DNA of 43,668 bases. It comes from Pseudomonadales bacterium (GTDB taxonomy: Bacteria; Pseudomonadota; Gammaproteobacteria; Pseudomonadales; Pseudohongiellaceae). Shown in pieces: positions 31,927 to 35,305 of the stretch. A model generated the notes under the pieces. That model saw only the letters and a list, made by a program, of their open reading frames with translations. It did not search any database and had not been told where the DNA came from. The translations under genes and the position numbers were made by a program. Location of the stretch: positions 1 to 43,668 of the forward strand of contig JALREE010000146.1 of NCBI GenBank assembly GCA_023256835.1, written 5' to 3'. Each line of letters opens with the position of its first letter. The first letter of the stretch is position 1.

Positions 31927-33243
<1,317 letters not shown>

Positions 33244-33254
33244 GGCGGCTCTCC

Positions 33255-33770
<516 letters not shown>

Positions 33771-35000
33771 CTACGCATTCGCGAGCGCCTTCTCGCGCTG
33801 CAGTGCCTGCACCGAGCGAATCAGTGGCAGCAAGAACACAAGGAAAATGACGATCGAGGCAATGCCCAGAGCGCTCAGCGCCACGGGCAATCCCTGGGTC
33901 TCGGCCACGCGTCCCAGCAGCGGGCCGGTCAGCACGAAGCCAAGACGAAAGTTCAGACTGGTGAGCGAGTTCACCGTGGCCCGCACGTTGCCCGGCACGC
34001 GGCGATTGAGCGCATTCACCATGATCACCTGACACAGGCCGCGGCAGAAGAACAGGATGAAACCCACCAGTATTCCCGCCCAGCCTTGCAGCCACGCCAT
34101 GCCGAAATGCCCGAGCACCGGCAGCAGACCGATCAGCGTCAGTGCGAACACCGGCCCGCGACTGCGCTCCAGGTAGCGTCCGCACTGACTCGCCATGCCG
34201 ACGGTGAAGCTCTGGGCGAACCACAGCGAGCCGAACGTCACCAGTGACAAGCCCTGCGCCTCCCAATAGGGCTGCACCAGCCAGGCCACGTGAAACGTGC
34301 AGAGGTTGTAGAGCGGGATCGCGACGAAAGTCTGTCGCAGGATCTTGTCGCCCTGCATCAGGTGCCCATAGATCGCCCTGAAGCCCCGCAACGGTCGGGT
34401 GCCAGGTGCCTCACGACTGGGGGGCTCATGCAGCAGAAGCGCTAGCACCAGACAAACCCAGGCCACGCCGGCCTGTGCCGCCACCATCAGATCGAAGGAG
34501 TTCACGGCCAGTGCCCCGCCAGCCAGGGCCCCTGCGCCCTCTGCAAACGCCTTGGTGGACGACAGATGGGCGATGCTGCCGGTGTGGGCGTCCTCGGAGT
34601 CCGACAAGGCTTTCTCGGTGTCGTACAACAGGGCCAGGTCGGCACCTGACATCATGCTGGCGGCGACACCTAGCAGGCACTCGAAGACCAGCAGTTGCAC
34701 GAAGCTGTCGGCGAACACCAGCCAGCCGTAACCCAGCCCGTGGGCGATGCTGCCGATCAGCAGCACTGTGCGCCGGCCGAAGCGGTCGGCCAGCATGCCC
34801 GAAGGTGCCTCGAGTACCACGATGAAGCCGGCATAGACGGCCTGCAGGTAGAAGATATCGCCAAGGCTCAGTCCCTTCGATTCAAAGAACGGCACGATCA
34901 CCGGCACGATCAGCATGAACATGTGAAAGAAGGCCAGTGCATGAATGATGCGGATGTTGCGTTGCAGCGCCGCAGTGCCGAGCTGGTTTTTTTCAGGCAT
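33771..35000 (-). CDS. MFS transporter
   Basis: IHALAFFHMFMLIVPVIVPFFESKGLSLGDIFYLQAVYAGFIVVLEAPSGMLADRFGRRTVLLIGSIAHGLGYGWLVF with 12-TM-like pattern. ATG at 35000. Confidence 0.94.
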   Translation of the reverse strand: MPEKNQLGTAALQRNIRIIHALAFFHMFMLIVPVIVPFFESKGLSLGDIFYLQAVYAGFIVVLEAPSGMLADRFGRRTVLLIGSIAHGLGYGWLVFADSFVQLLVFECLLGVAASMMSGADLALLYDTEKALSDSEDAHTGSIAHLSSTKAFAEGAGALAGGALAVNSFDLMVAAQAGVAWVCLVLALLLHEPPSREAPGTRPLRGFRAIYGHLMQGDKILRQTFVAIPLYNLCTFHVAWLVQPYWEAQGLSLVTFGSLWFAQSFTVGMASQCGRYLERSRGPVFALTLIGLLPVLGHFGMAWLQGWAGILVGFILFFCRGLCQVIMVNALNRRVPGNVRATVNSLTSLNFRLGFVLTGPLLGRVAETQGLPVALSALGIASIVIFLVFLLPLIRSVQALQREKALANA

Positions 35001-35053
35001 AAGTCCCCCTCTGCACACCCGTTGTGGATGCACACTGGCAATTGTTCAGGTCG

Positions 35054-35096
35054 AAAAAAAAGGCCTCGGAGTTCGGCGGGAACTCGGAGGCCTTTT
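35054..35096 (-). terminator. Intrinsic terminator upstream of the MFS gene
   Basis: Minus strand aaaaggcctccgagttc-ccgcc-gaactccgaggccttttTTTT: 17-bp stem with one mismatch, followed by a T-tract (8 T in total). Confidence 0.88.
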
Positions 35097-35125
35097 CAGG
35101 GTTCAATCATTATTGAATCAGAAGT

Positions 35126-35236
35126 TTACTCCAAGCCACTCTCCCGGGCGTTTTTCACCGCAATATGCAGCGCGCGCACATCGACGCTGGTCGATGTGTG
35201 CATGCAGACTGTGCGGCTGGTGCGTGGGGTGAACAT
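35126..35236 (-). CDS. Putative 36-codon leader ORF or small protein
   Basis: MFTPRTSRTVCMHTSTSVDVRALHIAVKNARESGLE*; lies between a sigma70-like promoter and the intrinsic terminator on the same strand. Confidence 0.35.
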   Translation of the reverse strand: MFTPRTSRTVCMHTSTSVDVRALHIAVKNARESGLE

Positions 35237-35277
35237 GATGACTCTCTGGTGTTGCAATCTGGTTCAAGACGGCGCGA

Positions 35278-35305
35278 AGTCTATGCCTTTGCAAAGGCAT
35301 GTCAA
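35278..35305 (-). promoter_or_regulatory. Sigma70-like promoter with palindromic spacer (putative operator)
   Basis: Minus strand TTGACA-tgcctttgcaaaggca-TAGACT. The 18-bp atgcctttgcaaaggcat (35283-35300) is a perfect palindrome. Confidence 0.7.

Follow-up and report, generated by a model that had tools for sequence, protein, structure and literature searches.

A putative trp-type attenuator in the leader of an MFS transporter gene of Pseudomonadales

The window, i.e. the whole stretch of 43,668 nucleotides analysed here, comes from a 2.6-Mb draft genome, taken to belong to the Pseudohongiellaceae of the order Pseudomonadales, and carries an MFS_1 transporter gene on its minus strand (33774..35000, with the ATG at 35000 and the Shine-Dalgarno sequence AGGGGGA at 35010-35004). 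In brief, this gene is preceded by a promoter, a leader ORF of 36 codons and an intrinsic terminator, all located on the minus strand. The gene 5' of the leader encodes a SirB family protein (PF04247) and ends approximately 90 nt before the ORF. The leader ORF (35126..35236) starts with ATG at 35236, stops with TAA at 35126 and encodes the peptide MFTPRTSRTVCMHTSTSVDVRALHIAVKNARESGLE*. This is exactly the peptide given in the first-pass annotation, and the order of promoter, 36-codon ORF and terminator before the MFS gene that was described there is confirmed.

Several elements can be recognized within and behind the leader ORF. Segment 1 (35224..35252) covers the leader translation start, from just 5' of the ATG through codon 4. 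A Cys codon, TGC (35204..35206), is a candidate for the codon that sets the pace of translation in the leader. A mid-ORF hairpin, GCACACATCGAC-CAGC-GTCGATGTGCGC (35174..35201, -16.2 kcal/mol), is a candidate RNA polymerase pause hairpin. Segment 2, GGCTTGGAG (35129..35137), consists of the last leader codons, adjoins the stop codon and is the putative 5' strand of an antiterminator. Immediately 5' of it lies the purine-rich, Shine-Dalgarno-like GGGAGAG (35139..35145). A small AU hairpin, TTCAAT-AATG-ATTGAA (35102..35117), is located between segment 2 and the terminator. The terminator hairpin (35058..35096, -23.7 kcal/mol) contains segment 3 in its 5' arm (CTCCGAGTT, 35089-35081) and segment 4 in its 3' arm (GAACTCCGAGG, 35074-35064), and has a T8 tract (35054..35061). 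It had been described as a 17-bp hairpin with T8 about 30 nt after the stop codon, with the MFS start about 50 nt further on. We find 16 of 17 pairs with one C.C mismatch, a gap of 29 nt between the leader stop and the terminator, and 53 nt between the T8 tract and the MFS ATG. The generic terminator scan did not pick up the terminator of the window, probably because four of its Ts pair in the stem.

The promoter (35278..35305) has the -35 box TTGACA (35305-35300), a spacer of 16 nt and the -10 box TAGACT (35283-35278), and the G+C-rich TCGCGCC follows right after the -10 box. TTGAC and the -10 box with the next TTCGC or similar are common to the 11 aligned units of the genus, and similar promoter boxes are found upstream of MFS orthologues in other genera. 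The G+C-rich TCGCGC after the -10 box (35271-35277 in the window) also occurs in many leaders of the family (upstream regions L055-L084). A G+C-rich stretch after the -10 box is a feature of promoters under stringent control. The promoter spacer is filled by a perfect 18-bp palindrome, ATGCCTTTGCAAAGGCAT (35283-35300), which may be due to chance or may be a lineage-specific operator. It was rejected as a conserved operator, since it is perfect in this genome only; the copy in the nearest relative carries a single mismatch, and the other nine aligned genus units lack it. The palindrome makes the promoter look regulated, as it had been described, but this detail is not supported.

The MFS protein matches PF07690 (MFS_1) with E=1.5e-21. 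Its best match is NorA, both by sequence profile and by predicted structure (model pLDDT 88), and it also matches LmrP and MdfA. The product is thus predicted to have a drug/H+-antiporter-like fold. Genes encoding a P-II (glnK-like) and an amtB-like protein are located directly downstream of the MFS gene (31927-33761), and such genes adjoin it also in two other Pseudohongiellaceae loci (L097, L108). The gene neighbourhood was considered as a clue to the MFS substrate and rejected, as the neighbours differ among loci.

Homologues of the MFS protein are found in 62 of the 137 genomes of the family (E<=1e-40), some of them being more distant homologues. Five further families were found to have the gene in a sample of 392 Pseudomonadales genomes, and the relatives with an orthologous gene include Pseudohongiella, for example Pseudohongiella sp. 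O18, and Pseudomonadales MAGs. In a class-wide sample of 369 genomes, no other genome gave an MFS match at E<=1e-60. The MFS orthologues thus span six or more families of the order. When the unit itself was searched for at the DNA level, it was present in most members of the same genus, and the comparison of upstream regions added a further locus (L063 of genome G006). We compared the upstream regions of 30 orthologues (420 nt each) and of more loci at 35-44% identity, followed by 20 loci from the family, 20 from the order and six more. A promoter, an ORF of 29-65 codons and a terminator are found before nearly all MFS orthologues (35-100% identity, at least six families). Since this arrangement of promoter, ORF and terminator, with its spacing, is repeated ahead of the orthologous gene across genus, family and order, the unit stands far above chance. 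The exceptions without the unit are loci of Bacteriovoracaceae or Oligoflexia and of one other bacterium (L138, L139, L145, L151), and the distant homologue L170 also lacks the layout of ORF and terminator. For loci L099, L100, L153, L167 and L196 the terminator was missed by the scan (short T run) or found too far upstream; the sequences of L153, L167 and L196 show a hairpin followed by Ts or at least the 3' portion of one. In genus g5 (L069, L079, L080 and L084) the MFS Shine-Dalgarno sequence is separated from the terminator by a further hairpin, variable in sequence, which may act as a translational control.

The genes flanking the MFS gene differ from family to family while the leader stays, indicating that the leader belongs to the MFS gene and travels with it. 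In each family that has the unit, it was found only upstream of the MFS gene. We did not find a second copy in the source genome, nor a plasmid-borne copy, the plasmid matches being remote MFS proteins on two plasmids only. Rfam gave no family match in the window or in 19 related loci. The first-pass annotation had offered an attenuator, a regulatory sRNA and a small-protein gene as possible identities. An independent sRNA or small-protein gene located before the MFS gene by chance would account for the unit's own promoter and terminator, for its size of approximately 220 nt, which is typical of an sRNA, and for the conserved ORF. However, the unit keeps to the MFS gene while the neighbours change, has no second copy in the genome, and has an ORF end that co-evolves with the terminator arm, as described below. 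We regard such an autonomous gene as very improbable, whereas the attenuator is strongly supported.

The alignment of 11 genomes of the genus shows that both promoter boxes and the terminator are kept, as is an ORF that is 36-40 codons long and has ...LE-stop at its end, whereas the middle of the ORF is not. The leader ORF is open at the same place across the genus with the exception of G009 (L173, G009:C89:8000-14500). Here, the leader contains a nonsense codon and the MFS gene is reduced to approximately its last 58 codons, right behind the terminator. This is a natural case of decay of both leader and MFS gene. A weaker second case is genome G146 (L167), with stops within the MFS gene and an interrupted T tract. 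The Shine-Dalgarno sequences of the leaders are weak, and we therefore deduce translation of the leader from its conservation.

We gathered 75 distinct leaders, and one representative of each of 37 sequence clusters was used in swap tests. For the 25 leaders of genus g5, the synonymous share over the last 17 codons and the stop is 0.34 in frame, whereas the two other frames give 0.17 and 0.20; the in-frame value was reached by 3 of 300 column shuffles. By this measure the C-terminal half of the g5 leaders, with the consensus GHQFCxRVVKNWETCLE, is constrained as protein. The same test gave no amino-acid constraint for the N-terminal half of the g5 ORF. The Shine-Dalgarno-like motif is also overrepresented: 31 of the 37 clusters have GGAG or GGGG among the final 45 nt of the ORF, with 17.9 expected, an excess that may in part be a by-product of pairing with the C+T-rich terminator arm. 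The codon frame of the motif varies between clades, which points to a role at the nucleotide level. The motif may make the ribosome pause close to the stop codon, or may just pair with the terminator arm.

Pairing between the end of the ORF and the terminator is the main evidence for an antiterminator. In the 75 leaders, a 25-nt stretch around the end of the ORF pairs with the terminator arm with a mean of -12.5 kcal/mol, compared to -6.3 kcal/mol for pairings elsewhere in the leader and -9.6 kcal/mol for shuffled ends. As a control for composition, the ORF ends of the 37 cluster representatives were paired with their own and with foreign terminator 5' arms. The own arm was preferred (-13.6 vs -10.2 kcal/mol, Wilcoxon p=2.7e-9, 37 clusters); it should be noted that this and the p-values below overstate the independence of the evidence, as the clusters are related by descent. 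About five of the 37 clusters had no preference or a reversed one. The pairing is usually stronger than that of any other part of the same ORF with the terminator arm. Furthermore, unrelated sequences make the same pairing in different clades, namely CTTGGAG/CTCCGAG, CTTAGAG/CTCTAAG, GGCTC..CGG/CCG..GAGCC, GAGACG/CGTCTC and GCGTTAGG/CCTGATGC.

Within the genus, CTTAGAG at the end of the ORF is the complement of CTCTAAG in the 5' arm of the terminator, with the variants CTTGGAG/CTCCGAG in the window clade and CTTGGAG/CTCTGAG in G007. The variable pair between segments 2 and 3 is A-U seven times, G-C twice and G-U once. In the window clade, a C in segment 3 keeps the antiterminator pair (A-U to G-C) but gives the C.C mismatch in the terminator. 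The change thus serves the antiterminator and not the terminator. The terminator hairpin itself is kept with compensatory changes in the genus. A folding simulation gave an engagement of segment 3 of 0.98 with a stalled ribosome and 0.43 with a ribosome at the stop codon, but it is too permissive and discriminates poorly between the two, as a shuffled segment 2 still gave 0.78. Based on the comparison of leaders, the ORF end and the terminator 5' arm are predicted to form a structure that excludes the terminator, which is what characterizes an antiterminator.

The small AU hairpin had been proposed to take part in alternative folding. It is kept in most of the genus and lost in G001 and G003. 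We rejected it as the alternative fold, as it is not kept throughout and as the partner of the terminator is instead formed by the last ORF codons. The AU hairpin is thus probably not the switch.

A second alternative pairing involves the two ends of the ORF. When the leader of the window is folded without the terminator, segment 2 is predicted to pair with the leader translation start with probabilities of 0.6-0.99. A swap test of the first 27 nt against the last 18 nt of the ORF favoured the own over the foreign partner (-8.4 vs -6.7, p=0.0055, 37 clusters). Four other ORF segments, used as negative controls, showed no own-over-foreign preference for the ORF end. In family f42, the ORF start and end change in concert over 9-10 bp, pairing GACCACC with GGTGGTT, GACCATCCT with AGGATGGTT, and GATCAC with GTGATT. 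The ORF hairpins are more stable than those of codon shuffles (p=3e-9, 37 clusters), and in the 25 g5 leaders the mid-ORF hairpin has pairs altered on both sides in a compensatory manner. Judging from these comparisons the mid-ORF hairpin is under selection. The pairings 1:2, 2:3 and 3:4 together with the mid-ORF hairpin correspond, at the level of sequence, to the four-segment architecture of a trp-type attenuator. Attenuation, as put forward in the first-pass annotation together with leader covariation as a means of checking it, is thus upheld by the co-evolution of ORF end with terminator arm and of ORF start with ORF end, by the mid-ORF hairpin and by the strict linkage to the MFS gene across families. 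The compensatory or co-evolving pairs are seen in the genus, in g5, in f42 and among the 37 clusters. The elements, their linkage to the gene and the co-evolution of all three pairings and of the mid-ORF hairpin thus emerge from the comparison of genomes.

Based on these observations, we suggest that the unit forms the 5' leader of the MFS mRNA, where it very probably controls transcription as a ribosome-mediated attenuator of the trp type. We infer the dynamics and the sign of the response as follows. RNA polymerase would start at the conserved promoter, and the mid-ORF hairpin would probably hold it until the first ribosome arrives. If the leader is not translated, segment 1 would pair with segment 2, the terminator (3:4) would form and the MFS gene would be off. 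A ribosome translating the leader at full speed would reach the stop codon and mask segment 2, so that again the terminator would form. If the ribosome is slowed or stalled in the leader, segment 2 would be free to pair with segment 3, giving read-through into the MFS gene. The inducing signal would then be slow translation of the leader, which may come from a shortage of Cys-tRNA or from a ribosome inhibitor.

The candidate signals discussed below are refinements of this attenuator and not alternatives to it. General slowing of translation, as by ribosome-targeting antibiotics, would make the MFS protein an inducible efflux pump. The protein is closest to drug/H+ antiporters such as NorA by profile and predicted structure, although fold similarity within the MFS is generic, and most leaders have no dominant amino acid. 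Drug-pump attenuators of this mode are known, i.e. PA5471.1/armZ (PMC12057347), BmrB-bmrCD (PMC4191407) and mef/mel (PMC4335068). However, general slowing alone does not account for the excess of Cys codons or for the amino-acid conservation in g5. We consider this signal a serious possibility, a little short of an even chance.

Alternatively, the signal may be a shortage of charged tRNA-Cys, with the ribosome stalling at one or two Cys codons of the leader. The MFS gene would then be switched on when cysteine or thiols run out, due to electrophiles, oxidants, thiol-binding metals or cysteine starvation. It had been noted that no single amino acid dominates the leader. This is correct for the window, and none of the leaders collected has a codon run of a single residue; across the 37 clusters, however, Cys is the most overrepresented residue. 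It is present in 95% of clusters, compared to 61% in position-preserving shuffles (z=4.6), and the mean number of Cys per leader is 1.5 vs 0.9 in these shuffles, while the overall Cys frequency equals that of a plain DNA shuffle. All six held-out leaders, fetched after the Cys signal had been noticed, contain Cys. In g5 the Cys codon at position -13 is kept in 24 of 25 leaders; TGC and TGT are used equally often, indicating that the Cys residue is kept rather than the RNA, but many other residues are conserved there too. The overrepresentation suggests that the Cys codon may set the pace of leader translation, and the uORFC-8-2 motif before cysS is a precedent (PMC8632094). On the other hand, the leaders usually carry just one or two Cys codons and the distance from Cys to stop varies widely. 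The placement of the Cys codon with respect to segment 1 followed no special geometry that we could find, the coverage measure being uninformative, and no cysteine-metabolism gene is linked. Two intact leaders, L060 and L123, lack Cys. An explanation of Cys-less leaders by broken MFS genes was rejected, as G013, without Cys, has a full-length MFS gene. The resemblance to NorA fits an antibiotic-type or a thiol-stress inducer alike. Taking both sides together, sensing of tRNA-Cys is possible but not the reading we would choose, general slowing being somewhat more likely. That an order-wide attenuator responding to tRNA-Cys charging couples cysteine or thiol depletion to an exporter of the drug-antiporter type is, as a whole, doubtful. 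If true, expression of the exporter would answer thiol-reactive stress without any protein regulator.

A third version of the same attenuator has the leader peptide arrest the ribosome on a small molecule in the exit tunnel, the arrest being converted to read-through. The C-terminal half of the g5 leaders is conserved as amino acids, and a C.R motif is found in 8 of the 37 clusters (p=0.004, uncorrected for the many motifs that could be tried). The leader peptides are, however, not alignable between families, and a ribosome arrested at the stop codon would sit on segment 2 and so favour termination. We consider nascent-peptide arrest improbable.

The attenuator proposed here would add an old and apparently undescribed system, conserved across at least six Pseudomonadales families, in which translation speed directly controls an efflux-type transporter. 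It also gives a functional clue to an uncharacterized transporter, which would be wanted when ribosomes slow down, possibly for lack of charged tRNA-Cys, and it hints that environmental gammaproteobacteria may have an inducible efflux route. In addition, the leaders are a well-covarying natural series for how attenuators rewrite their sequence yet keep their logic.

The attenuators of amino-acid operons in Proteobacteria (trpL, hisL and others) consist of a leader ORF, four alternately pairing segments and an intrinsic terminator, with the regulated gene close behind. The leader described here is predicted to have the same layout of ORF, four segments, terminator and nearby gene. Unlike the trpL and hisL type, it has no run of codons for the same amino acid, and the gene encodes a transporter and not a biosynthetic enzyme. 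The logic of the attenuator is thus known, whereas its use before this MFS gene is apparently undescribed, as we found no description of this leader in the open-licence literature.

Among leaders of drug-efflux systems, PA5471.1 of PA5471/armZ in Pseudomonas aeruginosa, likewise a member of Pseudomonadales, has a leader peptide and downstream terminators, and impaired ribosomes are proposed to permit read-through of these terminators (PMC12057347). That system also ends in drug efflux, but the armZ leader controls the anti-repressor of an RND pump and not an MFS gene. In Bacillus subtilis, the translated small ORF bmrB, alternative stem-loops and an intrinsic terminator control the multidrug transporter bmrCD (PMC4191407). 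A small ORF, alternative stem-loops and an intrinsic terminator precede a transporter in both cases, but BmrCD is an ABC transporter of a Gram-positive bacterium and the terminator lies inside the bmrB coding region. Leader-peptide attenuation also controls the macrolide efflux system mef(E)/mel (PMC4335068), which differs in being macrolide-inducible and located on mobile elements of Gram-positive bacteria. The uORFC-8-2 motif before cysS in Rhodobacterales is an attenuator with an intrinsic terminator and conserved Cys codons in its uORF, UGC and some UGU (PMC8632094). In contrast to the leaders described here, it has tandem Cys codons, precedes a cysteinyl-tRNA synthetase gene and is found in alphaproteobacteria.
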